From Lachnospiraceae bacterium GAM79 (GTDB taxonomy: Bacteria > Bacillota > Clostridia > Lachnospirales > Lachnospiraceae), in NCBI GenBank assembly GCA_003584705.1, contig AP018536.1, positions 868,001 to 932,000 of the forward strand: a stretch of 64,000 nt of DNA, given 5' to 3'. Shown here piece by piece: positions 6,207 through 26,803 of this stretch. Position 1 is the stretch's first letter, and every line of letters starts with the position of its first letter. The position numbers and the translations under genes are program-made. The notes beneath the pieces are model-generated. The model searched no databases and was not told the origin of the DNA. It was given only the letters and a program-made list of their open reading frames with translations.

Positions 6207-6321
6207 AGTGAGTATAAGCTCATAAAATGTGAGAATGCGTAGAAAAATGGCTCATGAAATGTGAAAAGTAGCATTGAATGAGCTATTTTTTTGTGATAGA
6301 CTAAAAACAGGAGGTGTTGCT

Positions 6322-7656
6322 ATGTATTTTAGAAGAAAAATAGATGATTTCCTCATTCAATGGAAACAGGACCCCTCACATAAGCCGTTGATTGTTAAAG
6401 GTGCGAGACAGATTGGTAAAACAGAATCTATTTTACATTTTGCAAACGAGCAATATAGTAGCGTAGTGTATATAAATTTTGTATTGGACAAGAAATTTCG
6501 AATGATAGTAAGTGACGGTTACGATGTAGACACGGTGATTAAAAATATTTCTTTGGCAAATCCTGCAATTCGGTTTGTTGCAGGGGAGACAATTATAATA
6601 TTTGATGAGATTCAGGAATATCCGGATGTTGCAACGACATTGAAGGCATTTCGACAGGATGGGAGATTTGATGTTATCTGTAGCGGATCTATGTTGGGGA
6701 TCAATTATAAAAAGATTCATAGTAACAGTGTAGGTAATAAGACAGATTATGAAATGTTTTCTATGGATTTTGAAGAGTTTCTATGGGCAAAAGGATATGG
6801 GGAGGAACAGATAGACAGCATTCGGAAACATATGATTGATCTAAAGCCGTTTAGCGAAACGGAGCTGAATATATACAAATCTTTGTTTTTGGACTACTGT
6901 GTGTTGGGCGGAATGCCGGAGGTAGTAAGGGGATATGTGGAAACAGGTACGTTCTCCGGATCGCTGGAAACACAGGAGCAGATCCGGTTGGATTATGAGG
7001 AAGATGTCAGAAAATATGCAGAAGGTCTGGATCAGGCAAAAATTATAAGTGTATATAGGAGTGTTCCGGCACAGCTAGCAAAGGAAAATAAAAAATTTCA
7101 GTTCAGTAAAATTGAAAAAAATGCCAGATCCAGAGAGTATACGGGATGTATTGAGTGGCTGATAGATGCCGGAGTTGTTACGGAATGCAATTGCCTGATT
7201 TTCCCGGAACTGCCGTTGAAGGGTAATATTGATGAAAGCAAGTATAAATTATATTATCCGGATACCGGCCTGCTGATATCTGCACTGGATGAGGAAGCCC
7301 AGGAAGATCTGAGGGTAAATAAGAACCTGGGTGTATATAAAGGGGCTCTATATGAAAATTTTGTGGCAGAAGCCTTTGTTAAACAGGGATTGGGATTATT
7401 TTATTACAAAAAAGACAATTCGACACTGGAAGAGGACTTCTTTGTAAGAACCCGGGATGAATTGATTCCGGTAGAGGTGAAATCTAACAATGACAGATCA
7501 AAGTCTCTGACAGCATTGATAAAGAACGAGAATTACAGCGATATAAAGCATGGAATTAAGCTTGGAGACTTTAACGTGGGATATGCAAATGGGATTTATA
7601 CTTTTCCTTACTTTTGTGCATTTATGATGAAGGCATATTTGAAAAGTTTGGACTGA
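6322..7656 (+). CDS. AAA-family ATPase with DUF4143 domain
   Basis: A 444-residue protein. The ATG at 6322 is chosen because an AGGAGG site lies seven bases upstream; the longer in-frame start at 6274 has none. Near the N-terminus the Walker A is KGARQIGKTES and the Walker B is IIIFDEIQE. The C-terminal half (DUF4143) ends in a PD-(D/E)XK-like stretch with EEDFFVR and IPVEVKS. Proteins of this COG1373 type are abundant in gut Firmicutes and are usually single genes. They are often found near mobile or defence DNA, and their biological role is not established. A strong terminator follows. Confidence 0.9.
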   Translation: MYFRRKIDDFLIQWKQDPSHKPLIVKGARQIGKTESILHFANEQYSSVVYINFVLDKKFRMIVSDGYDVDTVIKNISLANPAIRFVAGETIIIFDEIQEYPDVATTLKAFRQDGRFDVICSGSMLGINYKKIHSNSVGNKTDYEMFSMDFEEFLWAKGYGEEQIDSIRKHMIDLKPFSETELNIYKSLFLDYCVLGGMPEVVRGYVETGTFSGSLETQEQIRLDYEEDVRKYAEGLDQAKIISVYRSVPAQLAKENKKFQFSKIEKNARSREYTGCIEWLIDAGVVTECNCLIFPELPLKGNIDESKYKLYYPDTGLLISALDEEAQEDLRVNKNLGVYKGALYENFVAEAFVKQGLGLFYYKKDNSTLEEDFFVRTRDELIPVEVKSNNDRSKSLTALIKNENYSDIKHGIKLGDFNVGYANGIYTFPYFCAFMMKAYLKSLD

Positions 7657-9579: not shown

Positions 9580-9873
9580 ATGAAACGATTATATATTTTA
9601 GGAAATGGTTTTGATGTGGCACATAAATTACCTACAGCATATCTTGATTATCGTAAATTTTTGAAAGGCAGTATAGAAAATAAAGATTTCTGTATACGTA
9701 TGGAAGATACATATGGATTAGGGGAGAATACAGATTATTGGTGGAAAGAATTTGAAACAATGGCTGAATCTGTGATAGATACTATGATTTTAAGAATTAA
9801 CCAAAGGTACATCTCGAACTTATGGAATACTATAACTGTGTTACAAGCCAGTAAGAGTAATCAAGGCCGTTAG
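9580..9873 (+). pseudogene. AbiH-type abortive infection protein, N-terminal fragment
   Basis: The first 70 or so residues match the AbiH-family start: KRLYILGNGFDVAHKLPTAY, followed by TDYWWKEFETMAES. AbiH-type proteins are usually 250-400 residues, but this frame ends after 97. Its last 25 residues do not look like the family, so the gene is cut near base 9800 and joined to foreign sequence. A second, better preserved AbiH-type gene is present at 25261. The fragment is probably inactive. Confidence 0.75.
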
Positions 9874-10938
9874 TTTCTTTATTCAGTTTGCGATAGATGC
9901 GTTTGGCGGTGTTTTATTGCTTTCTTGGAATCTTTCTGTCTGCCACGGACGAGGTATCAATCAGGGATTTGCAAGGTTCTGGTTTAGGGTACATATCTTT
10001 TCGGTGATACAGGTTTAGAAGCATTAAAATCGGTCATGGTAAGATATTTCGTAATGGTCTTGCGACCATGAGCGGTTTTGAAAATAATTTCAGGTAAGTC
10101 ATGTTGGATGTATAATATTTAACAATATTGAGAAGAGTGACAAGATAAAAATGTCAGATAGTCCTATGAGGGAGCATATTCTATCCATACAGTCGGTAGA
10201 AAAGACGATTGCCGTTTGAACATACTACTCTAACATGGTATAATTTAAATATTAGGCATTGGGATATCGCAGAAATAGTTATATAAGGACTTTTGCTGGA
10301 AAATTGTATTTAGAAATATAAAGATTTTTTCTATGAAGAAGTATATGATGTTATAATATGAAATATGTATTAGTTTGAATTGACGATATAGGAAAAGACC
10401 TCGCATGATAAATTTTTACAGAGGATTTTGGAAAATAATGGTAGACCATAGAATGGAAAAATGAATATTTGATTGAAAGACATAGTATGGGATCTATAAT
10501 CGTTACAAAATGTGAGGGTGATAAAAAGTTTCATTGAATATAATAGAGGCAATTATTTATAGTTCAAACATGGTGTGGATGATGTTATTAGGTTTCAAAT
10601 GCCAGAGAAAGAATTGAGGAATAGAAAATGGATTTGTATTCTAAGGATAAAAACAAATTGGATTAATTGCGTCATATTATCTTTTGGGATACAATCTTAA
10701 TGCAGTAAAGCGTTGGGATATTCTGGGTGGAACAAAGCCTTTAAAGAGCTTGGGAAGCTACTGGACATCACTCGACATAATATTATAAATATAAGAGATA
10801 AATTTGATTCATATTTTAATAATCATAGAGTTTGATGCTATTATCAAAGAAGTCTATAATCTATTGAAATTTTGAGCAGATAGGGATATTGAACAGCCAG
10901 TCAGGAAATTGTTTAAATCTATAAAAGGAGTAGAGATA
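9874..10938. other. Decayed, gene-free DNA between the AbiH fragment and the defence operon
   Basis: No frame of useful length with a ribosome site is present. Scattered blocks look like worn coding sequence. Around 10653-10830 one frame, with breaks, reads like IGLIASYYL and, later, IRDKFDSYFNNHR. This resembles a short module found in some Firmicute restriction-type proteins (typically ...IKNMRDEFD...). Around 10140-10220 another short frame (KSDKIKMSDSPMREH) is unassigned. The stretch reads as a graveyard of earlier accessory genes. Confidence 0.5.
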
Positions 10939-11736
10939 TTGAATACAAACAATTGTATTTTAAAAGATTTATCGTCTTTGATTACACAAACAACTATACA
11001 TTATAATGAAGATTTTAAGTGGCAAGATGTTGAACTTACAAGTGAATTCAAGGATGCGTATGAGGAATATTTAGATCGTAATAACTGGAAGATTGAATTT
11101 TTTAATGCTACATCAGTAATAACAACTTCTACTTCAAAAAATATATTTGTTCCGAATCAATGGTTTGCTATGGCTTCATATGCCGTCGGTGTATATAGTG
11201 AACTTTTTAAATATAAAGAGTATTTTGAACACATTGCAGACAGAGGAAATAACAAGCGAGATGAGTACGCTAAACAATTAAGGGACAATGCTTCGGCTGC
11301 TGACAAAATAATATTTTTTGATAACGGGAAACAACTATTGACGGAGGACTTAGGCAATCAAAGCGGAGGTGATAAAGTAATAAGCAGGCTGTGGAGATTT
11401 GCAACAGATTATTCATGGTGGTCAGGTCAAAAAACAATAGATAGAGGAGACTTTTATTTGTCTGTTGTTTTGAGTATGCTTAACCTTGTAAATGCAAGCC
11501 AAGGGTATGTGGGGGAAATTGTTAATGCATATGGATCAGATGATCAGCTTAAACGATTAACAAGAAATCTTAGTTCGTTTACAACAAATATGGATGGAGA
11601 AACATATGATATCGCTTTTGAAGAAGAAATTATAAGTAGGAAAGGGGAAGATAAAGAGCCGGAATTAGTTAAAGGACCGACAAGAAGCAAGATTAGCATA
11701 TCACAAAACAGTATAACAAAGATTGGTGGTAAATAA
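10939..11736 (+). CDS. First gene of the SNF2/MORC/methyltransferase defence operon, unrecognised
   Basis: 265 residues. The start is taken as TTG at 10939, because AAAGGAG lies nine bases before it; another TTG at 10909 has no such site. The protein looks soluble, mostly helical and mildly charged. Visible stretches include WFAMASYAVGVYSELFKYKEYF and, in the C-terminal third, LWRFATDYSWWSGQ and LSMLNLVNASQGYVGEIV. No catalytic motif of a nuclease, helicase or methylase was seen. It ends two bases before the SNF2 helicase gene, so it is almost certainly co-translated with it and may be a targeting or scaffold subunit (inference). Confidence 0.75.
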   Translation: MNTNNCILKDLSSLITQTTIHYNEDFKWQDVELTSEFKDAYEEYLDRNNWKIEFFNATSVITTSTSKNIFVPNQWFAMASYAVGVYSELFKYKEYFEHIADRGNNKRDEYAKQLRDNASAADKIIFFDNGKQLLTEDLGNQSGGDKVISRLWRFATDYSWWSGQKTIDRGDFYLSVVLSMLNLVNASQGYVGEIVNAYGSDDQLKRLTRNLSSFTTNMDGETYDIAFEEEIISRKGEDKEPELVKGPTRSKISISQNSITKIGGK

Positions 11737-11738
11737 AA

Positions 11739-13640
11739 ATGAAAGGTGCTTGGAAGATAGAAAGTAATCATATAGTTTTTCAAACGGAAAATGAACTTTT
11801 GCATCCAAATGCAGAGGAACTTTTTGCGGTAGTTAATAGTCTTCCTAGCAATTTTTCTGAAGAATATGAGTGTGAAGATATACACTCTGCATTTCCAGAT
11901 GTTAGATTTTCTACGATTGGGAGCGATATTCGGGTGGATCTTTTTAGTGATGATAGAGGGGATATTTTTTTGGAATTGTATTGTTACAGGAGAAATAAAA
12001 GGGTGTCTGTAGACATCATTCAGGGGGTGATTGTAGATCAGTGTTGTACAAACTCGGAGTGGTTTTATGTTACCGGAGAAGTTCCTCAAATTGAAAAATT
12101 GTTTGCTAAATGTCAAATAAAGGAAAAGGGGAAAATATCGCTTTCTCAGTATATAAAATTACTAAGGGATGCGGACTCATTGATAGCATCGACATTGCAG
12201 AATAATGTTAGTTTTGATTCATTGAATAAATCAATTGATATGTCAGGTGATTTGCCGCATGGATTGAATGCAACATTATACAAGTATCAAAAAAAAGGTT
12301 TTTTTTGGATGATGTATATGCTCAATGAAAGTGGTGGGTGCATTTTAGGCGATGAAATGGGGCTCGGAAAAACACTTCAAGTTATTGCTGTGATACTTGA
12401 ATATAAACACCAATGCAAAACACCAGTGCTTGTTATTGCTCCGGTATCATTATTACAAAACTGGAAGAGAGAATGTGAAAAGTTTGCTCCAGAATTAAGA
12501 GTTGCTATTCATCACGGCCCATCAAGAACTGGAAGATATAAAGAGCTGCAAAAAAATGATGTTGTAATTATGTCATATAGTGCAGTGGTTACAGATAATT
12601 CTCTTTTAACAATGATTCATTGGAAACTTGTTGTTCTTGATGAAGCACAGAATATAAAAAATCCACATAGTGATAGAACAATATTTGTCAAAAAAATTCC
12701 AAGGGAAACTTGTATAGCAGTTACAGGAACGCCATTTGAAAATCATGTAACAGATATTTGGTCACTAATGGACTTTGTTCTGCCAGGAAGTCTGGGGAGC
12801 GAGTTGGAATATAAAGAGTATATTTCAGATGATATTTGTGGTGCAGATAAGGTGGAACCGTTGTTGTCTCCTATAATGCTTAGGAGGAGAGTATGTAATG
12901 TGGCAACAGATTTACCCGAGAAGGTAATTATACCACAACCGCTGGGTATGTCAGAAATAGAAGCAATAAAATATGAAGATTATCGAAAGGAAATATGGGA
13001 GCAGTCAGCGACGGGTGGATTGGAACTTGCGACTTTACAGAAATTGAGAATGTTTTGTACACACCCTGCAATTTGCAGAGAAGATTTCAAAGGAGATATA
13101 TATAGGAGTTCAATTAAATATCAAAGAATGTGTGAAATCGTTAATGAAATTGTTCAGTTAAAAGAAAAAGTTATTTTATTTACTTCATATCAAAAGATGT
13201 TTGAAATTTTAGAAAAGGATATTCCTGCTCGCTTTGGTATTCCTGTGAAAAAGATAAATGGTTCTACTTCGGTGGAAAAAAGACAAATTATTATTGATGA
13301 GTTTACAGAGTATGAGGGAAGCGCTCTTTTGATATTGAATCCAAGAGCTGCGGGAACCGGATTGAACATAACAGCAGCAAATCATGTTATTCATTATAAT
13401 TTGGAATGGAATCCGGCATTGGAGGATCAGGCATCTGCGAGAGCTTATCGCCGGGGACAGACAAAAAATGTTTTTATCTATCGTTTGTTTTATGAAAATA
13501 CAATTGAGCAAATTGTAAATGAAAGAATTGAGAAGAAAAGAGAAATGTCTGATGTGGCCGTAGTTGGTACAGAAGGAGAACAAAATAAAAAAGATTTGAT
13601 TGCTGCATTGGTAATATCACCAACGAGGAAGGGAGAATAG
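11739..13640 (+). CDS. SNF2-family DNA helicase/translocase
   Basis: 633 residues. The N-terminal 170 residues are family-specific. The ATPase core then begins with LYKYQKKGFFWMMYM (Q-like motif), Walker A GDEMGLGKTLQ (near base 12350) and Walker B DEAQ (near base 12640). It ends with the typical motif VI region, NLEWNPALEDQASARAYRRGQT. SNF2 proteins move along double-stranded DNA and remodel bound protein; they rarely unwind it. In R-M-like operons they are thought to supply the translocation motor. The gene sits between an unrecognised protein and the GHKL ATPase with gaps of 2 and 4 bases. Confidence 0.93.
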   Translation: MKGAWKIESNHIVFQTENELLHPNAEELFAVVNSLPSNFSEEYECEDIHSAFPDVRFSTIGSDIRVDLFSDDRGDIFLELYCYRRNKRVSVDIIQGVIVDQCCTNSEWFYVTGEVPQIEKLFAKCQIKEKGKISLSQYIKLLRDADSLIASTLQNNVSFDSLNKSIDMSGDLPHGLNATLYKYQKKGFFWMMYMLNESGGCILGDEMGLGKTLQVIAVILEYKHQCKTPVLVIAPVSLLQNWKRECEKFAPELRVAIHHGPSRTGRYKELQKNDVVIMSYSAVVTDNSLLTMIHWKLVVLDEAQNIKNPHSDRTIFVKKIPRETCIAVTGTPFENHVTDIWSLMDFVLPGSLGSELEYKEYISDDICGADKVEPLLSPIMLRRRVCNVATDLPEKVIIPQPLGMSEIEAIKYEDYRKEIWEQSATGGLELATLQKLRMFCTHPAICREDFKGDIYRSSIKYQRMCEIVNEIVQLKEKVILFTSYQKMFEILEKDIPARFGIPVKKINGSTSVEKRQIIIDEFTEYEGSALLILNPRAAGTGLNITAANHVIHYNLEWNPALEDQASARAYRRGQTKNVFIYRLFYENTIEQIVNERIEKKREMSDVAVVGTEGEQNKKDLIAALVISPTRKGE

Positions 13641-13644
13641 AAAT

Positions 13645-15285
13645 ATGATCAAAACTATAAGATCGATAAGTCCAATAGGGGGTATGGGAACCCAGGATCC
13701 GGTTGTATGTCCTCCAGATCCAGAAAGAGTTATTGAAGGACTTAGAGATACAGGTTATAACTTTAATACCGCAATGGCAGATATTATAGATAATTCAATT
13801 GCGGCTCATGCTACACAAATAGATATTCATATTAATATGAACCCTAAAGGAGAGATTACAGTTTATATCGCTGACAATGGTGATGGTATGAATATGGAGG
13901 GACTCATTAATGCGATGACATATGGATCTAAGGTCAGAGATGATTTAAGTAGTCTCGGCAAATTTGGATTAGGATTAAAAACGGCATCTACGGCATTTTG
14001 CCGAGCACTGTCAGTAGTGTCTAGAGCTGAGGATAACATTACAAGAAAAGCACAATGGGATTTAGATTTTGTAGCTTCTTCGCATGAGTGGAGTCTTAAA
14101 CTTCCGGAAGTTTCTGAAGAAGAACAGATTCTTTTAGATACAACATCGAAGAATGGAACGGGAACGCTGATTGTATGGGAACGCGTTGACCGACTGTTAA
14201 AAAGTTATAATGCGATTGGTTCAGCAAGAAATGCATTGAATAGAAAGATTGACCAATTGCAGTTTCATGTGTCTATGGTATATCAACGATTTCTTGATCA
14301 AGATGATAATCGGGCTGCTAATGTAAATATAACTATAAATGATGTGAATATTGAGGCGTGGGATCCGTTTGCAAGGAAAGAAGAATTAACGGAATTATTA
14401 GCAGAAGATACGGTTGAGGTTGATATGCCAGATGGAACATGTCCTTGTTTCACAATGCGTGCATTTATGCTGCCAAATAAAGATAGCTTTTCTACTTCGA
14501 AGGCGATGAAGGATGCTCGTATTAGCAATGATATGCAAGGATTTTATGTGTATCGTGAGAATAGACTAATTCACTATGGTGATTGGCTGGGAATGTTTAT
14601 TAATGAACCTCATGGATCATTATTGAGAGTGGAGTTTTCGTTTGATCATGAATTGGATGCTGCTTTTAATGTTGATATAAAAAAATCACGTATTCTTCCG
14701 GCTGAAGAAATAATGGATCATATAAAAACGAAATTTATTCCTGCACCCAGAAGAGCTGCTGAGGATAGATACAGACATGGAACTGCGAAGAATGTTTTGC
14801 AACGTGCTGAAAAGCGTGACGCACATGCTGAGTCTAATAGAAACATTGAGGAAAAGGCAAAAACAGTTGAAGGGGCAAAGGTAACTGAAACAGAGATTCC
14901 AAATGAAGTTCAGATTACAAATCCGAACGGAACATTTTCACATAAGTTAGCTGTTGTCCATTCACAGAAAACAGGACAAACACGAGTAATTCCGAAGGAT
15001 GACCTGGAGTATGGACAGCTGTGGATGCCGGCGTTAGTTGATGGAAAACATGCCGTATTGATAAATCAGAGTCATCCATATTATCAAAAGGTATATTCTC
15101 CTGTTTTAACACAGAATGTTATGGTGACAGGAATGGATGCTTTATTATGGGCATTATCAGAAGCTGAATTAAACACAATAAATGAACTTGATAAGGAACA
15201 TTATGAAGAAATGAGAATTATTGTTTCGAGGGTTCTAAAGAAATTAGTCGCTGATCTACCGGATCCGGAAGAGGATGATGAATAA
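13645..15285 (+). CDS. MORC/MutL-like GHKL ATPase
   Basis: 546 residues; the ATG follows GGGAGAATAG. The GHKL fold is clear at the N-terminus: MADIIDNSIAAHATQIDI (motif N), YIADNGDGMN (motif G1) and GKFGLGLKTAS (motif G2). The next 200 residues have the transducer-like pattern that follows the ATPase in MORC and MutL proteins. The C-terminal 150 residues are specific to this group. Aravind and colleagues described prokaryotic MORC/MutL-like ATPases inside R-M operons with superfamily II helicases and nucleases. Here the neighbours are exactly of those types. ATP-driven clamping on DNA is the expected role (inference). Confidence 0.88.
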   Translation: MIKTIRSISPIGGMGTQDPVVCPPDPERVIEGLRDTGYNFNTAMADIIDNSIAAHATQIDIHINMNPKGEITVYIADNGDGMNMEGLINAMTYGSKVRDDLSSLGKFGLGLKTASTAFCRALSVVSRAEDNITRKAQWDLDFVASSHEWSLKLPEVSEEEQILLDTTSKNGTGTLIVWERVDRLLKSYNAIGSARNALNRKIDQLQFHVSMVYQRFLDQDDNRAANVNITINDVNIEAWDPFARKEELTELLAEDTVEVDMPDGTCPCFTMRAFMLPNKDSFSTSKAMKDARISNDMQGFYVYRENRLIHYGDWLGMFINEPHGSLLRVEFSFDHELDAAFNVDIKKSRILPAEEIMDHIKTKFIPAPRRAAEDRYRHGTAKNVLQRAEKRDAHAESNRNIEEKAKTVEGAKVTETEIPNEVQITNPNGTFSHKLAVVHSQKTGQTRVIPKDDLEYGQLWMPALVDGKHAVLINQSHPYYQKVYSPVLTQNVMVTGMDALLWALSEAELNTINELDKEHYEEMRIIVSRVLKKLVADLPDPEEDDE

Positions 15286-15287
15286 GA

Positions 15288-16115
15288 ATGGATAATATTT
15301 GCCAAAAGATAAAAGAATCGCTTCAGGACTTGTATGATATTCCATTTAAAGTATCATGTAAAGATGTATTTACAGATCTTGTTTATACAATAATTCCAGA
15401 AAATGATTTGGAGGAATTATTTGAGATTACAATTACAATAAAACAGGCAGTAAGAATGATTATAGAGATTTTTCCTCAGAAATATGCAGCTCGTATGCTT
15501 TGTGAAATGAAAAATGCAGATGAAGCAAAAAGACATGTTTTTGTTGAATATGTTCATTTGTTTCAGAAAAAAGCAAAAACGGATTTTATTTTAAATCAAA
15601 TCCGTCGTAATGAAGCTGATTCTGATTTCTGGAGGGATGATTGGAAGCAGTTTAAATTAAGGGCAACACAGATTTTAGATGAAGGTGATAAGGCATCTGA
15701 AGATTATTTGATTGAATGGTCAAAACTTGCTGTGGGCTTAATGATGGCTTTGCTTACATTGGAGGACGTAGATAATGAACAAAAATATTTAGAAGGAAAA
15801 GTTTCACAGGTTTTAACAAACAAATACGAACGCAATCCGGCTAATAGAGAATTATGCTTGGCAGCAAATGGGTATTTATGCAAAATATGTGGGTTTGATT
15901 TTGAGGATAAATATGGAAAAATTGGATATAAATTTATACATGTGCATCACATACAAATGGTTTCATCATTTGGAAGAGAATATTATCTAGATCCCGTGAA
16001 GGATCTTATTCCGGTGTGTCCGAATTGTCATGCAATGTTACATAGAACAAATCCGCCTATGAAACCGGAAGAATTAAAAGAATTAATAAGAAAGCAACAG
16101 AACGGAGACAAATAA
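15288..16115 (+). CDS. HNH endonuclease
   Basis: 275 residues, start two bases after the GHKL gene. Residues 1-190 are helical and unrecognised. The C-terminal 80 residues form a McrA-type HNH site: LCKICGFDF, then HVHHIQMVSSF, then IPVCPNCHAMLH, giving two zinc CxxC pairs around the catalytic HH. This is the most likely DNA-cutting subunit of the operon. It ends one base before the methyltransferase gene. Confidence 0.9.
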   Translation: MDNICQKIKESLQDLYDIPFKVSCKDVFTDLVYTIIPENDLEELFEITITIKQAVRMIIEIFPQKYAARMLCEMKNADEAKRHVFVEYVHLFQKKAKTDFILNQIRRNEADSDFWRDDWKQFKLRATQILDEGDKASEDYLIEWSKLAVGLMMALLTLEDVDNEQKYLEGKVSQVLTNKYERNPANRELCLAANGYLCKICGFDFEDKYGKIGYKFIHVHHIQMVSSFGREYYLDPVKDLIPVCPNCHAMLHRTNPPMKPEELKELIRKQQNGDK

Positions 16116-17288
16116 ATGGTACAGGCTGAAAAAATAAGAGCACATAGAGAAGAGTTGGGGCTTTCTGTAAAAGAAATGTCTGATGCCATAGGCTTAGGAA
16201 AAGAAGGGGATAAACTTTGGAGAAAGTGGGAAGCGGGGGATGAGAAATTACCCAAAAGCCAGTATGAGAAGATAATGAATTTTGCAACATATACGCCATA
16301 TAGAAATGAAATAGAAGATCCTTGCTTTAGATACATTGATCTCTTTGCGGGAATTGGAGGAATTAGAATACCTTTTCAAGAATTGGGAGGGAAATGTGTA
16401 TTCACTTCAGAGTGGGATCCTTTTGCGCAAAAAACATATAAAATAAATTTTGGGGGAGAAATAGCAGGAGATATTACTGAAGTGGATGAAAAAACCATTC
16501 CAGATTTTGACATACTTCTTGGAGGATTTCCTTGTCAACCATTTTCTCAGGCAGGTTTGCATAAGGGATTTTCGGATACAAGGGGAACGCTTTTTTTTGA
16601 TATTGAACGTATTATTAGTGAAAAAAGACCGAAAGCCTTCCTTCTTGAAAACGTAAAACAATTAAAGGGGCATGATAATGGAAGAACATACTGGGTTATA
16701 GAAGAACATCTGAGAGCATTGGATTATTCGGTTTCTTCTGCCGTGCTAAGAGCTGGTGATTTTGGAGTTCCGCAGAATCGAGAAAGAATATATATTGTTG
16801 GTTTCGATAAAAGATATTATAACATACGGGGTGAATATGAGTTTAAATTCCCAGTTCCTCCAAAGACAAAAACATGTTTAGGGGATATATTGGAAAAAAA
16901 GGTTGATCCTAAATATACAATTAGTGAGAGACTGTATGAAGGACACAAAAGAAGAAAAGAGGAACACAAAAGGAAGGGCAATGGATTTGGATACTCATTG
17001 TTTACTTCAAAATCGGAGTATACAAATACATTAAGCGCGAGATATTACAAAGATGGAAGCGAAATTCTGATAGACCAAGGAAAGGGGATGAGACCACGTA
17101 AGCTTACTCCGAGAGAGTGTGCAAGATTACAGGGATTTCCGGAAGAATTTATTATTCCGGTATCAGATACAAGGGCATATAAGCAGTTTGGTAATTCGGT
17201 GGCAGTGCCAGTTATAAGAGCACTTGCTAATTCTATGATAAGCGAGTGCCTTCATTTAGAAGAAAAGAGGTGTGAGATTAATGAGTGA
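16116..17288 (+). CDS. DNA (cytosine-5-)methyltransferase with N-terminal HTH
   Basis: 390 residues; GGAG lies nine bases before the ATG. Residues 1-55 form an XRE-like helix-turn-helix (IRAHREELGLSVKEMSDAI). The catalytic domain has all key motifs: FAGIGGIR (I), GGFPCQPFSQAG (IV, catalytic Cys), LLENVKQL (VI), QNRERIYIVGF (VIII), RPRKLTPRECARLQGFP (IX) and QFGNSVAVPV (X). It should make 5-methylcytosine and mark host DNA as self. The target recognition part between VIII and IX is short (about 110 residues) and typical of single-specificity enzymes. The HTH may also repress its own promoter, as in other C5 methylases with this fusion (inference). Confidence 0.95.
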   Translation: MVQAEKIRAHREELGLSVKEMSDAIGLGKEGDKLWRKWEAGDEKLPKSQYEKIMNFATYTPYRNEIEDPCFRYIDLFAGIGGIRIPFQELGGKCVFTSEWDPFAQKTYKINFGGEIAGDITEVDEKTIPDFDILLGGFPCQPFSQAGLHKGFSDTRGTLFFDIERIISEKRPKAFLLENVKQLKGHDNGRTYWVIEEHLRALDYSVSSAVLRAGDFGVPQNRERIYIVGFDKRYYNIRGEYEFKFPVPPKTKTCLGDILEKKVDPKYTISERLYEGHKRRKEEHKRKGNGFGYSLFTSKSEYTNTLSARYYKDGSEILIDQGKGMRPRKLTPRECARLQGFPEEFIIPVSDTRAYKQFGNSVAVPVIRALANSMISECLHLEEKRCEINE

Positions 17289-18855
17289 TACAGGAGTATT
17301 TACTAAGAATTTATGTGATTTGTATTCTGTTTCGGCGGGGGCATATACAACTATTACTGAAAGTGAATTAAAGCGTGCAACCTTTAATGTAAAAAAAGAC
17401 ATTAGAGAATTACTGATTTTAATGATTGGGAAAGGAAACTTTTCAACGCCAGAAGATGAAATTAAACACAAGATAAAATTTAAAATCTTAAATGATAACC
17501 GTGAGGTTGAATTAGCATGCTATTATGCTAAACGCAATAAAGAGGAAATGTCTATATATTTCACATCTGAGATTATAAATAGATATAACATTGAACCGGA
17601 TGATATATGGTTCGTGTGTTCAGAAAATGATAATTCTATTCCGATTCTTGGTTTTGCAAAAAAAGAGAAGTGGAAAGCTAATTTTATGAATGTTGAGAAA
17701 CTAATAGAGGAATCATTGGGAATTGAAGGAAGTGGAGAATTAGAGGACGATTCAGATGATGATGTTGGGGGGAATGAACAGCCATTTGATGCTGATAAAA
17801 TTCGAATTGACCAGCAAATGTTATCGGTAAAATACATATATGAGTTATATCAATCAAAATTACTGGATACGAATCCAAATTTTCAAAGAAAACCTGTTTG
17901 GAACGAATTAAGGAGAAAGTCATTACTAATTGAATCCTTAATGCTACGAATCCCTATTCCTGCATTTTATTTTTATGAAAACGAAGACAGTCTATTTCAA
18001 GTAATAGATGGTCAGCAAAGACTATTGACGATTTTTGAGTACATAAATGATGGGTTTAGGCTTAGCAATTTGGAATATTTGAATGATATATGTGGAAAAA
18101 GAAAATTTAGTGAATTGGATATTAAGTATCAACAAAGAATATATAGGACTCAGCTTGCAATTAATATTTTGGATGCGAGATCTCCACATAGGGTAATTTA
18201 TGATATTTTTAGAAGGATTAACACTGGAGGAGTAAACCTGACTCTTCAAGAGATGAGAAATGCTATCTGTACACAGAGGATTCGAGATTATTTAGAGACA
18301 GGTGTAAGCAGTACGGAGTATTTGGAAGCAACAAGGCATAAAATAAATGACATCCGAATGGATTCACAAGAACTATTTTTGCGATTTATTGCATTATACA
18401 GATTATATGATTATCAGAAGGGATGTTTAAAGCCTTATTACTATTCCAAAATTTCAAAATTATTGGATGATGAAATAGGAGAATTAGCCAGACTGGATGA
18501 TAATCAGTTGGAAGAAATTTTTACAGCTTTTAAAACTTCTATGAAGCGATGTAAAGCATTGTTTGGAAAATATGCATTTGTGAAAATTTATGAAGAAAAC
18601 GGAGAAGTTCGTGTAAAAAAAGATTTAATTAATAAGGCTTTGTTTATGTCGGTTTCAGTTGTGCTGGCAAATGATAAGTATCAAAATATGAATTTAGACA
18701 TGTGCAGGGAGCGTGCAATAAAAACCTTAGCAGTTCAACTTCAAGATAAAAAATTTGATAAATCAATTTCTGGGGGAACAGGAGATAGATCAAATGTTTT
18801 GTTAAATTTTGAAATTATTCAAGAGGTGATCGATAGATGTGTAACGGAAGAATAG
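17281..18855 (+). CDS. DUF262-domain protein
   Basis: 524 residues. ATG at 17281 is chosen (AGAGG upstream); it overlaps the methyltransferase end by 8 bases. The N-terminal 160 residues are beta-rich with a Glu/Asp-rich linker (about 145-165) and may be a DNA- or effector-binding module (inference). The DUF262 core follows with FQRKPVWNELRRKSLLIES, the hallmark VIDGQQRLLTIFEY, and RRINTGGVNLTLQEMRNAI. DUF262 is the nucleotide-dependent half of GmrSD-type enzymes that attack modified DNA. No HNH/DUF1524 half is seen here, so cleavage may be left to the separate HNH protein. Confidence 0.88.
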   Translation: MSDTGVFTKNLCDLYSVSAGAYTTITESELKRATFNVKKDIRELLILMIGKGNFSTPEDEIKHKIKFKILNDNREVELACYYAKRNKEEMSIYFTSEIINRYNIEPDDIWFVCSENDNSIPILGFAKKEKWKANFMNVEKLIEESLGIEGSGELEDDSDDDVGGNEQPFDADKIRIDQQMLSVKYIYELYQSKLLDTNPNFQRKPVWNELRRKSLLIESLMLRIPIPAFYFYENEDSLFQVIDGQQRLLTIFEYINDGFRLSNLEYLNDICGKRKFSELDIKYQQRIYRTQLAINILDARSPHRVIYDIFRRINTGGVNLTLQEMRNAICTQRIRDYLETGVSSTEYLEATRHKINDIRMDSQELFLRFIALYRLYDYQKGCLKPYYYSKISKLLDDEIGELARLDDNQLEEIFTAFKTSMKRCKALFGKYAFVKIYEENGEVRVKKDLINKALFMSVSVVLANDKYQNMNLDMCRERAIKTLAVQLQDKKFDKSISGGTGDRSNVLLNFEIIQEVIDRCVTEE

Positions 18856-19922
18856 AGCATATTAAACTAAAGAATTATAAATGTCATAGATCGTTTGAAT
18901 CGGATTTGAAAAAACTAACTATATTGGCAGGGGAAAATAGTGCTGGAAAATCATCAGTTATACAGGCATTATTAATGCAATATCTTGTGTTGGGTAAAAA
19001 AATGTCAAGCATAAATACGTTAAATGTTATGGGGAATAACTTAGGGGTCGCATTGAATCTGATTTCTCCCGAAAGTGTTACCGGCGGCTTTTCTATTGAG
19101 ACAACGGTAGATGGTGTAGAAAGGATCTTAAATTACTCTGTAAATGAGACTGAAGAGATGGTGTTAGATGTCCAAGGCAATAAGGAATTAATTAAAACAG
19201 AATTGTATTATTTGAATGCAGAAAGAATTGGACCAAGACTCGCAAATCAAATATATAATGATTCATGTTATGTTGGAATACATGGAGAAAATGTAATATA
19301 TGTCATAGAGCAAATGGATAAAATGCTTATGAGCAATCCGGATATTTCATTACCGAGGGATGTCGAAATTGCCAAAATTAAGAGATTCTCAGCAAATGTT
19401 GAAGAGTGGTTGGGAATTATTGTTCCTGATACAAAGATTTCTACAAAAGTAAATGTATCTCAAGGGATTGCGTCTGTTGAATACAATACAGGGGGAGATT
19501 TTTTTGGGGCTACAGCGACTGGATTTGGCGTAACATATGTGCTCCCTATAATTGTCCAAGCGTTAATAGCGACCACCAAAAAAAATGCATTGATTATAAT
19601 AGAAAATCCGGAAGCACATCTTCATCCTTATAGTCAGTCAATGTTAGGAAAATTTTTAGCATTAATTGCAGAAAATGGTGTTCAAATTGTGATCGAAACA
19701 CATAGTGAACATATTATCGATGGATGCAGAATTGAGATGGCAAATACTGGTCATAATGAAGAGATGGGAATTATTTTTTTTAGTAGATCGGGTGGAAGAT
19801 ATGAGCATGAAAATATTACAGTAAATGATGTAGGGGAACTGTCAAGTTGGCCTGCTAAGTTTTTTGATCAATCGATGGAAGATTTAAGGGAGTTACTAAA
19901 GATAAAATTATGCAAACAGTAA
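18837..19922 (+). CDS. AAA ATPase, SMC/OLD-like (DUF3696-type)
   Basis: 361 residues, overlapping the DUF262 gene by 19 bases. The N-terminus is IEHIKLKNYKCHRSFESDL, followed by Walker A GENSAGKSSVIQALL. The C-terminus has ATGFGVTYVLPI (signature-like), Walker B IIIENPEAHLHP and a switch IETHSEHIIDG. This is the compact ATPase half of OLD-like proteins without a TOPRIM nuclease domain. Such ATPases commonly sit beside DUF262 proteins. It overlaps the next gene by 13 bases, so DUF262, ATPase and the following protein are probably one sub-complex. Confidence 0.9.
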   Translation: MCNGRIEHIKLKNYKCHRSFESDLKKLTILAGENSAGKSSVIQALLMQYLVLGKKMSSINTLNVMGNNLGVALNLISPESVTGGFSIETTVDGVERILNYSVNETEEMVLDVQGNKELIKTELYYLNAERIGPRLANQIYNDSCYVGIHGENVIYVIEQMDKMLMSNPDISLPRDVEIAKIKRFSANVEEWLGIIVPDTKISTKVNVSQGIASVEYNTGGDFFGATATGFGVTYVLPIIVQALIATTKKNALIIIENPEAHLHPYSQSMLGKFLALIAENGVQIVIETHSEHIIDGCRIEMANTGHNEEMGIIFFSRSGGRYEHENITVNDVGELSSWPAKFFDQSMEDLRELLKIKLCKQ

Positions 19923-20782
19923 AATTCGTTTTAAGCCCACTAAATAATATAGTAAGTTTAAATGAGGTTAATATTAATCATGTAGATCTGGTTATAGATA
20001 GGATCAAAAGTAATGGTGATAAATTTTTTATTCCGAATGATTTTTATACAACAAAGGACAGAAATGGAAAAACGATTTATGACTACTTGTTCGAACAGGG
20101 AAAGCATGAAATAGATTTGTTAAGGCAGATAGTATTGCAAACATCAGGTGTAGATGAATCTTATACAGAATTGTTTTCTCAAGATAAGGTTGGTTATGTA
20201 ACGTTTGATAAAAGTGGATTTCAAGAAGAGAAAAGAATGCTTTGTGCAGAAAAAATGGAGGACCTTCCCAAAGTATATTTACAAATGATAAATGATTTTA
20301 CATATAATGATTTGTATGAATGGAGTGAAAGATGCTTTCCCAATCTTATGTTTACGGAAGATTCATTTATACATGCTGAACAAATAGGATCTTTTCAGGA
20401 CAATAAACTTGATATAATAAATGCGTTAGAAACGTTAGATGAATTAATGGATGAGGAAAGAAAACAATATTCGGAACAGGAATTATTGGAGGTACTACAG
20501 GCAAAGTCTGGTGTTACGTGCTCGGGAAAAGGAAGTAATGAATCAGGAACATTCAAAAAGAAAATATTATTGAAAGACGAGAAAAACAGAGAGTTTCATA
20601 CAGAGATATCATGTATTCCGCATTTTAAGATTGAGAAGAAGCATAGTGACAAACGATTACATTTTTCGTGGGGGAAGGAAGAGATAAGAAAGAATGCAAT
20701 TATAGTTGTACATGTGGGACAGCATTGGTCATCCGAAAATGAAAAAGAAGCATTGATAAAAAATTATATTCATCATGCATAA
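19910..20782 (+). CDS. Partner protein of the AAA ATPase, unrecognised
   Basis: 290 residues, starting inside the ATPase gene. Residues 1-60 look like a small alpha/beta unit. The middle is acidic and helical (QDNKLDIINALETLDELMDE). The last 60 residues contain FHTEISCIPHFKIEK, RLHFSWGKEEIRKNAIIVVHVGQHW. A tail with basic, HFSWG and IIVxHVGxH patterns recalls small effector domains coded next to OLD-like ATPases, but I cannot assign a fold. It is the last gene of the tight operon, and an effector or nuclease role is only a guess from position. Confidence 0.75.
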   Translation: MQTVKFVLSPLNNIVSLNEVNINHVDLVIDRIKSNGDKFFIPNDFYTTKDRNGKTIYDYLFEQGKHEIDLLRQIVLQTSGVDESYTELFSQDKVGYVTFDKSGFQEEKRMLCAEKMEDLPKVYLQMINDFTYNDLYEWSERCFPNLMFTEDSFIHAEQIGSFQDNKLDIINALETLDELMDEERKQYSEQELLEVLQAKSGVTCSGKGSNESGTFKKKILLKDEKNREFHTEISCIPHFKIEKKHSDKRLHFSWGKEEIRKNAIIVVHVGQHWSSENEKEALIKNYIHHA

Positions 20783-21104
20783 GGTGAAAATAAATTTGCT
20801 GGGTATTGATTTCTTTCACTTCATTAGTATGCAGTTGGAAAGCGGACATTTTATTATTGATAAAGTAAAATATATAGAAATGGATAGTTTTAGACTATTA
20901 GAGATAATAAGACCTCAGCCCAAAATGAATGAAGAAGCTTAAAAGATAATGCCTGATAGGGAAGAAGCAGATTATTAAAATGTTCAAGGGGCAGCCGTGT
21001 TAACATCGCCGTTAAATGACGGTTTGTCGGAGAAAATTATGTAAGGAAATTAAGTTAGAAATAAAACTTGACACAGTTGACATTTGTTCATTGGGAGTGT
21101 TGTT
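20783..21104. other. Spacer between the defence operon and the Vsr gene
   Basis: No coding frame is supported. Close to the Vsr gene there are two TTGACA hexamers (near 21068 and 21077) that could serve as a -35 region, so vsr may have its own promoter. An imperfect hairpin around 21005-21030 (catcgccgttaaatgacggt) is visible. Confidence 0.4.
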
Positions 21105-21554
21105 ATGACGGACGTATTAACACCAGAACAGCGCAAAAAGAATATGCAGCATATCAAGTCGAATGATACAAAAATAGAGGTTATTCTTAGAAAAGCCTTG
21201 TGGGCGAGAGGATATCGGTACCGCAAAAATTACAAAGAGCTTCCAGGAAAGCCGGACATTGTATTAACCAAGTATAAGATTGCTGTTTTCTGCGATGGAG
21301 AATTTTTCCATGGAAAAGATTGGGAAGTTTTGAAACCGCGGTTAGAAAAAAGCAATAACAGTGACTTCTGGATCAGCAAAATATCTAGAAACCGTGAGAG
21401 GGATGACGAAATCAATAAGGAATTATTATTTCTCGGATGGACTGTGATTCGGTTCTGGGGCAATGAAATAAAGAAAGACACGGATGCTTGCATAAGGGTA
21501 ATTGAAGAAACAATTTTTGATGAGAAGATGAGAGCATGTGAAGAACACGATTAG
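21105..21554 (+). CDS. vsr: Very short patch repair (Vsr-type) endonuclease
   Basis: 149 residues; ATG at 21105 is used because GGGAG precedes it by seven bases. The sequence follows the Vsr family: LTPEQRKKNMQHIKSNDTKIE, RYRKNYKELPGKPDIVLTKYK with the catalytic Asp, and DGEFFHGKDW with the metal/His site. It ends in VIRFWGNEIKKD. Vsr nicks DNA at T:G mismatches produced by deamination of 5-methylcytosine. It is usually linked to a C5 methylase such as the one at 16116. The gene closes the defence locus. Confidence 0.9.
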   Translation: MTDVLTPEQRKKNMQHIKSNDTKIEVILRKALWARGYRYRKNYKELPGKPDIVLTKYKIAVFCDGEFFHGKDWEVLKPRLEKSNNSDFWISKISRNRERDDEINKELLFLGWTVIRFWGNEIKKDTDACIRVIEETIFDEKMRACEEHD

Positions 21555-22529: not shown

Positions 22530-24140
22530 TCATATTTTTAGAGTTTGGAGTTTTTCGCTCCAGGGTGCCAGTTCTGCAAGCTGCTCATCACTCCAGGTTT
22601 CATCCGGCCTTTGCTCCAAAACATAGCTGAGGTAACCGTAGATATTTAAGTTGTGTGCCTTCGCCATCTCCACCATCGTGTATGTAATGGCACTGGCCTG
22701 TGCACCTTCCACAGAGTCACTGAACAGCCAGTTCTTGCGACCGACCGTGAACGGCTGGATGGTATTTTCACTGAGGTTATTGGTGAAGCTGCAGCGTCCG
22801 TCTTCCAGATAAGTCATGGAAGTCTCCCGACGGTTCTTCACATAGGTCAGCGCCTTGTCCAGGCGAGTGTTACGGGTGGGATTCTGACTGTCGACCCACG
22901 CCCAAAAGGCCTCGAGAACCGGCTTTTCCTTCTCGAGACTCATCTGTTTGCGTTTTTCATAATCCGTCCCGCATTTGCTGGTAATGGTGCTTTCCAGTCT
23001 TGCCAGACGGTCGCAGTAGTGGACACCCTGTACTGCCGGCTGGTTGTAATCCAGCTGTTTTCCTTTCGGAATGGCATCCACGAAGTATCTGCGGATATGT
23101 GCCCAGCAGGAACAGCGCTTTATGCCGGACACTTTATTGTAGCCCTGGTAGCCATCGGTTTCCAGATAACCCTGAAAGCCATCCAGGAAGTCTGCCGCAT
23201 TGTTTCCGCTTCTTGTCGGAGTGTATCCGTATAGAAGAATGACAGGCTGACCATCTTCCCCGGTGCGGAACAGCCACATGAATGACTGGCTTTCAGCACT
23301 CCGCCCGGGTTCCTTCAGGACCTGTACCCGGGTCTCGTCTGCCATGAGGAACTCCCTCTGTAGAAGCTGACGATGGAAGTAATCGTACAGTGGACGGAAA
23401 TAATGTTCCGCACTGTAGATGATCCAGTTTGCAAGGGTCGTACGGCTGATGGCTGCCCCGTATTCCTTCCAGTCCTTCTCCTGACGGTAAAGTGGCATGC
23501 CGTTCGCATACTTCTGGTAGATCGTCCATGCAACTGTAGAAAGGGAAGCAGGACCTTTCCCAATGAGTGCCGGTGCTGCTTTGGATTTGATGATCACAGC
23601 TTTTTCGGTATCACCTTTTCCATCCTTGCAGTTGGGACAGCCATAGCTTTCCGTATAGTACTCATAGATCTCACATCTGGCAGGTGTGAATACCAGCTCC
23701 CTGCGGACGTATTCTTCCCCGATGCGTTCCATGGGTGTACCGCATACCGGACAGATCTTATCTTCCTTTGCCAGAGGTATCACCTGTTTATGTACCGTAA
23801 GACCTTTGAAAAGTTCTGCATGGGTCGCCTTTTTCTTTCTGGGGCTGGGTTCCTCAATGCAGTCTTCTTCCGGAAGGGAAGGGTCCTGTTCTGCCTCTGC
23901 CTCGTTGAACAGATTGAGCTGTCCCGGGATGTCAGAGTGTGTCTTTTCACTGGAGGTGCCGAAAAGCTTCTTCGTCAGATAGTCCACCTGTTCCTGCAGC
24001 ACTGCTTCATGGGCAGTCTTTTCATCAATGACTGTTCTGAGGGAACGGATCAGCTCTGTCTGTTCAGCCATCATTGTCTTCAGTTGTGAAACGGTATCCA
24101 TCAGCTCTCGCAGCTGAATGTCCTTTGCACTGGAAGCCAT
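22530..24140 (-). CDS. tnpC: IS66 transposase (TnpC)
   Basis: 536 residues. The N-terminal 60 residues form a leucine-zipper-like coil (LRELMDTVSQLKTMMAEQTE). Next comes the CPVCGTP zinc-finger region, with YGCPNCKDGKG. The DDE core includes FLMADETRVQVL, LETDGYQGYNKV and the C-terminal helical SFTNNLSENTIQPFTVGRKN. Length and order are those of a complete IS66 transposase. Confidence 0.96.
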   Translation of the reverse strand: MASSAKDIQLRELMDTVSQLKTMMAEQTELIRSLRTVIDEKTAHEAVLQEQVDYLTKKLFGTSSEKTHSDIPGQLNLFNEAEAEQDPSLPEEDCIEEPSPRKKKATHAELFKGLTVHKQVIPLAKEDKICPVCGTPMERIGEEYVRRELVFTPARCEIYEYYTESYGCPNCKDGKGDTEKAVIIKSKAAPALIGKGPASLSTVAWTIYQKYANGMPLYRQEKDWKEYGAAISRTTLANWIIYSAEHYFRPLYDYFHRQLLQREFLMADETRVQVLKEPGRSAESQSFMWLFRTGEDGQPVILLYGYTPTRSGNNAADFLDGFQGYLETDGYQGYNKVSGIKRCSCWAHIRRYFVDAIPKGKQLDYNQPAVQGVHYCDRLARLESTITSKCGTDYEKRKQMSLEKEKPVLEAFWAWVDSQNPTRNTRLDKALTYVKNRRETSMTYLEDGRCSFTNNLSENTIQPFTVGRKNWLFSDSVEGAQASAITYTMVEMAKAHNLNIYGYLSYVLEQRPDETWSDEQLAELAPWSEKLQTLKI

Positions 24141-24260
24141 GCTTTTTCTCCTTGGTTCTGATACCTTTATTATACCAGAAAAAGCAGTTTTCCTAAAGGA
24201 TAATCACCCCTGAAAAATGCTGAAAATATGCTGTTTACAGGCATTTTTCTGTGCATGTTT

Positions 24261-24602
24261 TTATTCCGGTTTCAGAGCCTTTGGCTGGTCGATATCGATA
24301 CCGGACATGAGCCAGTCAAACTCTCTCCAGGTCAGATTTCTGACTTCGGACTGTTTCCTTGGCCACTGGTATCCTCCATGTACCGTCAGCTTTTTATAGA
24401 TCAGTACAAAACCGTCAGCATCACGGAACAGGGCTTTGATCCGGTCTCTGCGCCTGCCGCAGAACAGAAACAGCGCACTGGATGCCGGATCCAGTTTCAG
24501 CTGATCTTCCACCACGGCACAGAGGCCGTCAATGGATTTGCGCATATCGGTATAGCCGCAGACAATGTAGATCCGTTCCAGTCCGGAGATATCGCCTAAC
24601 AT
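24261..24602 (-). CDS. tnpB: IS66 accessory protein TnpB
   Basis: 113 residues with the family signature VCGYTDMRKSIDGLCAVV and LFLFCGRRRDRIKALFRDADG. Needed together with TnpA and TnpC for IS66 transposition in characterised members. It overlaps tnpA by 7 bases. Confidence 0.95.
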   Translation of the reverse strand: MLGDISGLERIYIVCGYTDMRKSIDGLCAVVEDQLKLDPASSALFLFCGRRRDRIKALFRDADGFVLIYKKLTVHGGYQWPRKQSEVRNLTWREFDWLMSGIDIDQPKALKPE

Positions 24603-25003
24603 ACAACTGCCTTCAGGATCTGCAGGGTTCGGGACAGCAGTTCCGGATCCGTCTTATCAGAGACCCGGATCGTAGCAGAGCCAAGAATTATCTCTAAAGT
24701 ATGGTAAGTATCAGGGAACGGATCGTTGTATTGCAGCGAAAAGTGTTCCGGTATGATATCAATGGGAACCACATCCAGTCTGGGACGGGGATTCTCAGAA
24801 TGACCATAAGCTGGTTCCGGGATCTGAGCTGATTCCTTGCGAAGCTGTTTTATCCAGTAATAAAAGGTGCTGACAGCGATGCCGTGCTCACGACACCAGT
24901 CGATATCTGTCATGCCGCTGGAGCGGCATTCATTGATAAGTTTCAGCTGTTCCTCTTTGGGAACACGGGGTTTACGGATATTTGCCATGATGTTGTCCTC
25001 CAT
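24596..25003 (-). CDS. tnpA: IS66 accessory protein TnpA
   Basis: 135 residues. The helix-turn-helix MTDIDWCREHGIAVSTFYYW is the standard IS66 TnpA/IS3-type DNA-binding element. The translation may begin five codons in (MANIRKPRV), where a better start context lies. It is the first gene of the element, reading from its right end. Confidence 0.93.
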   Translation of the reverse strand: MEDNIMANIRKPRVPKEEQLKLINECRSSGMTDIDWCREHGIAVSTFYYWIKQLRKESAQIPEPAYGHSENPRPRLDVVPIDIIPEHFSLQYNDPFPDTYHTLEIILGSATIRVSDKTDPELLSRTLQILKAVVC

Positions 25004-25260: not shown

Positions 25261-26803
25261 ATGACCAACGAAGAATTTCAAAGCAGTCAAAATTTTGAAG
25301 AGAATCTGAAAGAATGGAATCTGTTATCTCTGGAAGAGATGGGGGAATCTGTTAAGGAGGGTTCTCTTTATGTGATTGGCAACGGATTTGATATGCTACA
25401 TGGCGTCAGATCCAGCTATTACGATTTCAGCAGGACTCTGGGAAAAAGAAGTACGGTCCGGTTTTATCTGGAAAAATATCTGAAAACCGATGACCTGTGG
25501 GCGGATTTTGAAGGGGCATTGGGGAAAATCAACATAGAGGCTATGTGTCAGCCGTATATCATAGATAATTTTCTGGACATAAATGGGGCATACGATGAGG
25601 ATGCAGGTGCGGCCGAGATCTATATGTCCGCAGAAATGGTGGTGGAGCCGATTATTTCCATGTCAACGGAATTAATGGACCGGTTCCGTAAATGGATCGG
25701 CAGTCTGCATACCAATACGAATGACAGACCGTTATGCAATGTGATCAAAGACGGGAAAGTATTAAATTTTAATTATACGGAATTCGTGGAAGATTTGTAT
25801 GGCGCGGATGCCGGGAATATTTGCTATATCCATGGCTGTCGGAAGAAGACCGGAAGGGGACGGCAAAGGTTGATTCTGGGGCATATTCCGGGAGCTAATG
25901 ATGCGGCCTATGAATTTGAAGATGATTACTCTGCAGTCGATAATCTGGATGAGCATGCCCAGCTATTATACGATGTGCAGCAGATCGCTTTGCAGATGGT
26001 CGTGGAGGCTGATGATACATTGACGAAAAAATGTAAGGAGATCATTCAGAGCAATCAGCCTTTTTTTTGATGGATTAGCGGATATCCGGCAGATAGTCAC
26101 CATAGGGCATTCGCTGTATCCGGTGGACTGGGATTATTTTGCAGAGATCATAAAGTGTAATAAAGACAGGAACCGGATGCAATGGTTCTTTGGCTGTTAT
26201 GGAACCGGAGATCTGGAGCGGGTACAGACTTTTATCAATACCTTTGGGATAAATAAAGATCAAGTCATGATTTTTCGGACGGATACGATTCCTGTAACAT
26301 TATTGGCGGATAATAAGGGGGAAAAGCCCAAGGCAAATGTTAAGCATCGGAAGGTACTGGCTTCCTCTGAGGATGGAAAGTGGCAGGTTGTCCGCGAGGG
26401 CAGGAAGGTCAATATTATTGATAGAACAGCAAACAGTTGCAGCTGTTCCAGAATGTTTTTGACATACATGAGCGGGGCTGTTTTTGACTGCAGCGGTATG
26501 GTGTTAGTTTTGGTGGCAAGAGGACTGAGGGCCGGGGTATTTTTATTTCGGTTCGCCAACGGAGAGTGGCAATATAGAGGGGAATTGGAACCTATTCCAC
26601 ATCAGGGAGTGATTACCAAACGCTTGCAAAAAATATTATTGAGGGGCAATCGGCTGGTCTTCGTATATAACAGCAGAATCCGAAAATATGATGTCGAAAC
26701 GGGGAAACTGGTATATAATAAGGCCGTAAGGCATGCTTTCGAGACGGAAGGCGAAGACTTGACGCAAAAGTTTAAAAGAATATACAGAACAGGTTTTTAT
26801 TAA
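25261..26803 (+). pseudogene. AbiH-type protein with a frameshift in a T8 tract
   Basis: The first frame (25261-26070) encodes an AbiH-type N-terminus: SLYVIGNGFDMLHGVRSSYY, ending with KVLNFNYTEFVEDLYG and ICYIHG. It stops right after a run of eight T at 26062-26069. With seven T the reading continues as QPFFDGLADIRQIVTIGHSL in the other frame. This restores the AbiH motif GHSL and runs on to 26803. The total would be about 513 residues. The last 170 residues form an extra beta-rich domain unlike typical AbiH. It could be a true pseudogene or a phase-variable switch. AbiH proteins act in abortive phage defence. Confidence 0.8.

Follow-up and report, generated by a model that had tools for sequence, protein, structure and literature searches.

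Menshen, a defence system of three genes (NsnA-NsnB-NsnC), was reportedly described by Millman et al. 2022. It is reviewed in PMC10952713. Operons of a second kind were predicted by Iyer, Abhiman and Aravind in 2008 and combine SWI2/SNF2 ATPases, MORC ATPases, HNH or EcoRII-like nucleases, cytosine methylases and Vsr, and also include a VP1/RAV DNA-binding protein (PMC2292703). Here we describe a locus from Lachnospiraceae bacterium GAM79 in which systems of these two kinds meet. It lies in a window of 64,000 nucleotides (contig AP018536.1, positions 868,001 to 932,000), whose own numbering is used throughout. By family assignment, genes 1-5 of the locus and the Vsr gene are predicted to form a MORC-type restriction-modification operon of the second class of Iyer et al. 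2008, and genes 6-8, adjacent and in that order, to encode the Menshen proteins NsnA, NsnB and NsnC. What sets the locus apart is that Menshen is joined to a MORC restriction operon via a domain fused to the N-terminus of gene 6 (the N-domain). Both halves were known before, and the locus is less novel than had been hoped in the original prediction, which put it forward as a candidate undescribed eight-gene restriction-like system.

Results

An additional domain on gene 6

Using the MORC protein as the hub of a genome-collection scan, we found 205 relatives, the best 80 of which (the MORC loci) underlie all counts given below; presence was called by single-sequence phmmer, for core genes at E below 1e-5. 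The first ~145 residues of gene 6 are absent from eight aligned unfused NsnA. They match the first ~150 residues of a protein found in five of the 80 MORC loci (L002, L003, L004, L005 and L019; phmmer 64-100 bits), where this protein adjoins the methylase and Vsr, L005 being cut by the contig end. It stands after Vsr in four of these operons and between methylase and Vsr in Blautia L019, exactly the position occupied by NsnABC in the window. The L019 genome belongs to the window's genus (a 100-base probe is identical in a genome of that genus), so that the window's host is probably a Lachnospiraceae of Blautia type, and the Vsr proteins of the two loci are 80% identical. Sister operons from the same genus and family hold the same gene-1/SNF2/MORC/HNH/methylase/Vsr core plus the N-domain protein, which ends in the Pfam domain NOV_C in all three proteins scanned (L002, L003 and L019; 4.5e-19 to 2.5e-18). 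All four complete sister proteins carry a GYD...EVK motif, which we take to be the signature of PD-(D/E)XK nucleases, NOV_C presumably being a nuclease domain.

Further matches to the N-domain were obtained in L104 and L137 (phmmer 7.2e-24 for L137), and in a protein of 415 amino acids with no Pfam match (G081), whose gene neighbours Vsr in an operon that also encodes a methylase and an EcoRII-N-like protein. Other genes found beside the methylase or Vsr encode EcoRII (L011, L023), Mrr_N proteins (L020, L022) and unknown proteins (L006, L007).

Fused NsnA is not confined to the window. Long NsnA form four clusters within the 120 top-listed homologues out of 1534, namely the window's own (P0241) and P0243, P0244 and P0245; P0242 was excluded as chimeric. 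P0243-P0245 keep the fusion (57-59% identity, 99% coverage, 531-532 amino acids), and their N-domains are 46-59% identical to those of the NOV_C proteins. In the other loci examined, no N-domain match was found on a DUF262 open reading frame (ORF); the longest NsnA ORFs of family loci reach 501 codons between stops. A tree of 33 NsnA C-parts places the fused proteins in one group, and because its support is 83/45, with the group present in 82% of bootstrap trees, the fusion probably arose once, though this is not certain. The gene-1 homologue P0023 and P0245 are both listed on a 408,420-base NCBI contig, probably the same one, which suggests that the P0245 fusion may also lie in a gene-1-type operon. 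We found no printed description of the NsnA fusion, although Li et al. 2025 (NAR gkaf357), which by its title concerns Menshen domain polymorphism, may contain one.

The MORC restriction-modification core

The core is widely conserved. SNF2 is present in 77 of the 80 MORC loci, HNH in 76, the methylase in 70 and Vsr in 43. Restricting the count to the 47 loci that have 6 kilobases (kb) or more on each side gives 47, 46, 46 and 30. These loci span Bacillota, Bacteroidota, Pseudomonadota and others, and one is archaeal. The order gene 1-SNF2-MORC-HNH was found again in other genera and is therefore not due to chance. Two subtypes can be told apart: 18 of the 80 loci have gene 1, and 58 have an EcoRII-N protein, typically between SNF2 and MORC. 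The two never occur together (0/80), and four loci (L043, L057, L061 and L081) have neither. In PLSDB annotation, one Rhizobium and one Fuscovulum plasmid carry the EcoRII-N subtype, with helicase, EcoRII-N, an ATP-binding protein (a MORC match), HNH, dcm and Vsr. The Eggerthellaceae operon L081 (7485-11593), with no match to gene 1 or EcoRII-N, has a tandem pair of MORC genes flanking a single HNH gene.

The Menshen module

We compared the window with 18 NsnA-NsnB loci from its own family or genus, each a stretch of 4 to 18 kb. The sample is not random: ten are family loci picked for an NsnB behind NsnA (out of 12, G205 and G140 with partial NsnB being left out), and eight are the best genus matches (of nine besides the window's). 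SNF2, MORC, HNH, methylase, Vsr and the N-domain are absent from all 18 stretches. Conversely, NsnB was found in 0/80 MORC loci (phmmer, E below 1e-10), and weaker matches in L011 (1.3e-05) and L062 (7.1e-07) were set aside as longer ATPases. NsnC was likewise found by phmmer in 0/80 MORC loci, which is weak evidence because the window's NsnC detects a counterpart in only 4 of the 18 Menshen loci, in line with variable effectors.

Two Arthrobacter MORC operons contain a DUF262 gene (L072 14812-16083 and L078 13628-14947; PADLOC NsnA 5e-64 and 7e-60) with an unknown partner shortly downstream, perhaps an independent association of DUF262 with such operons.

Organization of the locus

ORF coordinates confirmed the eight tightly packed genes of the original prediction, with gaps of at most four bases or overlaps and a Vsr gene behind them. 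All eight ORFs are open on the + strand between 10939 and 20782 (Table 1). Genes 1-5 are separated by 2, 4, 2 and 0 bases, and the later genes overlap by 8, 19 and 13 bases. Vsr starts ~320 bases after gene 8 if its start is ATG 21105, or 300 bases after it if TTG 21084 is used. Searches of Pfam, NCBIfam and PADLOC profiles, together with motifs read directly in the sequence, bore out the predicted domains; PADLOC results comprise the best 25 matches per protein, and the NCBIfam lists are complete. PADLOC recovered all three Menshen proteins and, for the MORC protein, a match to MzaB. Recognisable motifs are intact in all nine open genes except gene 1, for which no motif is known. The S5 motif of MORC, GFYVYRENRLI (14539-14571), fits the signature GhXhhpXXRhl. 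The methylase N-terminus gives a weak helix-turn-helix match (HTH_19, 0.0035), which is below the cut-off, and the C-terminus of NsnC has a pattern, C-x2-H-x-K ... G-x-H, in common with four other NsnC. A 55-residue ORF (20775-20942), whose start overlaps the nsnC stop, has no match among the loci compared.

Table 1. Features of the locus, in window coordinates.
Feature	Coordinates	Strand	Evidence
Remnant of gene 1 N-domain, broken over several frames	10650-10930	+	tblastn
Gene 1, core of uncharacterised helical protein of one MORC operon subtype	10939-11736	+	TTG start, ribosome site
SWI2/SNF2 ATPase	11739-13640	+	Pfam SNF2-rel_dom 3.3e-56; LDEAQN box
Prokaryotic MORC (GHKL + S5) ATPase	13645-15285	+	HATPase_c_3 8.1e-31; MORC Bergerat motifs
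HNH nuclease	15288-16115	+	Pfam HNH 1.3e-06; HVHHI, CPNCH
C5-cytosine methyltransferase	16116-17288	+	DNA_methylase 2.9e-109; PCQ, ENV
Whole gene 6 (NsnA, DUF262)	17281-18855	+	N-domain plus NsnA body
Gene 6 N-domain, proposed recognition domain	17281-17706	+	phmmer and profile matches to NOV_C proteins of sister operons
NsnA body, DUF262 (ParB/Srx-like NTPase)	17707-18855	+	PADLOC NsnA 1.4e-104; GmrSD_N/DUF262 3.7e-21; IDGQQR 18004-18021
NsnB, OLD/ABC-type ATPase with DUF3696	18837-19922	+	PADLOC 1.7e-87; AAA_15 1.2e-27; DUF3696 8.6e-09; Walker A GENSAGKSS
NsnC, presumed Menshen effector	19910-20782	+	PADLOC NsnC 5.8e-36
Vsr mismatch endonuclease	21105-21554	+	Pfam Vsr 8.2e-34; TIGR00632 1.5e-42

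Gene 1 is shortened in the window and has lost an N-terminal domain that most of its close relatives keep. It has 265 codons from its TTG start, with a good ribosome site (AAAAGGAG) upstream at 10923, and its closest listed homologues are mostly ~375 amino acids long (~376 in P0003 and others). A tblastn search aligns 10707-10856 with residues 28-76 of P0003 at 60% (2.4e-16), and adjoining pieces lie in other frames. Homologues of ~270 amino acids that lack this domain exist too, and in all six long relatives examined this internal start position is likewise an ATG or TTG, so the operon core may still be working.

Genomic surroundings

The genome that holds the window is a single contig of 4.08 Mb. 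Upstream of the operon lie two Wadjet type II genes, JetC, which is truncated at the window edge, and JetD (53-4364; PADLOC 0 and 3e-145), followed by an AAA_14/DUF4143 ATPase (6274-7656) that matches the PADLOC candidate PDC-S01 (9.3e-154). AbiH-type genes flank the operon, one an upstream fragment of 97 codons (9580-9873) and the other at 25261-26070. Directly downstream of Vsr, three minus-strand ORFs (22530-25003) resemble an IS66-type transposon by eye, and a match to a DDE transposase lies at 39231-40982.

Discussion

The anatomy of the locus is well established: it combines a restriction class known from prediction with a known defence module, tied together by a domain fusion at the effector slot. 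We consider it fairly probable that this is a MORC restriction-modification operon whose extra restriction effector was swapped, Menshen having taken the place of the nuclease while the domain stayed. The methylase would mark host DNA, and Vsr would repair T:G mismatches arising from deaminated 5-methylcytosine. Unmarked target DNA might be read by the N-domain or by gene 1, which stands where the sister subtype has a protein with an EcoRII-N (B3) domain. SNF2 would then move on the DNA, with MORC as an ATP-driven closing clamp and HNH as the cutting enzyme. Instead of steering a nuclease domain, the N-domain would pass the non-self signal to the DUF262 nucleoside triphosphatase (NTPase) switch, NsnB would relay it and NsnC would be the effector. 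We infer that, through the fusion, target recognition by the restriction operon can set off Menshen. A bolder proposal, which we put forward tentatively and hold with less than even confidence, is a restriction-gated Menshen: a methylase-governed recognition domain would have been transferred from a restriction nuclease to the DUF262 NTPase of Menshen, unmethylated target DNA, which ordinarily calls for cutting, would trigger a separate and possibly cell-killing effector cascade, and the methylase-side slot would be an exchangeable effector bay for NOV_C, Mrr-like, EcoRII or Menshen effectors.

Several observations weigh against an effector swap. The complete eight-gene layout was found in no other genome examined, the surroundings of P0243-P0245 lying outside the comparison. 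Identity between the window's N-domain and its eight compared relatives is only 31-41%, and the domain sits on a very long branch (4.66), whereas the methylases of the window and of the N-domain-carrying operons are 75-78% identical; this is hard to square with the domain and the methylase reading the same site, since greater conservation would then be expected. The N-domain may have changed its partner or specificity, or may be drifting under relaxed constraint. An hhalign comparison gave no link between EcoRII-N and either the N-domain or gene 1 (probability below 1% in each case), and the proposed DNA-reading role is therefore argued from position only. One origin of the NsnA fusion is weakly supported by the tree.

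The strongest alternative, which we nevertheless regard as unlikely, is that the MORC restriction operon and Menshen are independent neighbours in a defence island, and that the N-domain fusion is a junction accident without joint function. The surroundings, with JetC/JetD, PDC-S01 and AbiH genes, are indeed those of a defence island, Menshen genes stand without the restriction core in 18/18 fetched relatives, the effector slot is empty in some gene-1-type MORC operons, such as Fibrobacter L015, and the window's N-domain has diverged. An accident at a junction is harder to reconcile with a fusion that is in frame and stop-free, with 25 invariant columns in alignment A6, and that was found again in three clusters at 57-59% identity.

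We find it improbable that all eight genes make up a single undescribed system, as the original prediction had proposed. Tight spacing and overlaps run across all eight, and the domain fusion links gene 6 to the restriction core, but the genes are not normally found together, and we set the eight-gene unit aside because of the co-occurrence counts (NsnB in none of the 80 MORC loci, the core in none of the 18 Menshen loci). Nor is the set undescribed: its first arm corresponds to the second operon class of Iyer et al. 2008 (PMC2292703), and its second is Menshen according to PADLOC. The prediction had named earlier naming of such clusters as one system, or a lack of co-occurrence, as grounds for giving it up; a name for the second arm and an absence of usual co-occurrence are largely what we found. 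What stands of it is a methylase-centred restriction operon (SNF2, MORC, HNH) with a second arm of DUF262, AAA and unknown proteins. The joint reading of both arms is rescued by the fused N-domain, which had been overlooked; this domain is common to the nuclease-like protein of sister operons and is fused in three more clusters.

Least probable of all is a partly decayed copy whose operon may be methylase-active but restriction-poor: the gene 1 N-domain is broken, the NsnA N-domain is on a long branch and a truncated AbiH fragment lies directly upstream, but all nine genes are open with recognisable motifs (none known for gene 1), short gene-1 homologues occur and the internal start is kept in the long relatives.

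If the favoured effector swap is functional, it would show that the parts with which restriction systems recognise and act can be exchanged for their counterparts in newly discovered defence systems. It would also provide a handle on Menshen sensing, the trigger being whatever the N-domain reads, which can be tested against the methylase; the finding is of interest because it is directly testable. In addition, the comparison separates two MORC operon subtypes, one with the uncharacterised gene 1 and its sister with an EcoRII-N reader in that place.

Among known systems, the type IV enzymes GmrSD and BrxU have a DUF262 NTPase domain in common with gene 6, whose Pfam scan gives GmrSD_N only and no DUF1524. 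The GHKL ATPase is related to MzaB of the MZA system (PADLOC 2e-48; NCBIfam 5.8e-58), but its NCBIfam MzaB score, 196 bits, falls below the cut-off of 850, and the matches listed contain no Mza component other than this MzaB-like protein. The locus resembles the class of Iyer et al. 2008 (PMC2292703), which likewise unites in a single operon SWI2/SNF2, MORC with GhXhhpXXRhl, HNH, cytosine methylase and Vsr. It differs from most of its MORC relatives in having gene 1 instead of an EcoRII-N (VP1/RAV-type) protein, and from its relatives also in having Menshen instead of an EcoRII-like or NOV_C nuclease. With Menshen it has in common a DUF262 protein, an ATPase and NsnC, in order, overlapping and with strong PADLOC matches. 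Unlike in Menshen, these genes lie inside a restriction operon, and NsnA (524 amino acids, versus 389-434 in the listed unfused clusters) has an extra N-domain found in restriction-operon proteins; genes 6-8 are therefore a Menshen module rather than a stand-alone Menshen.

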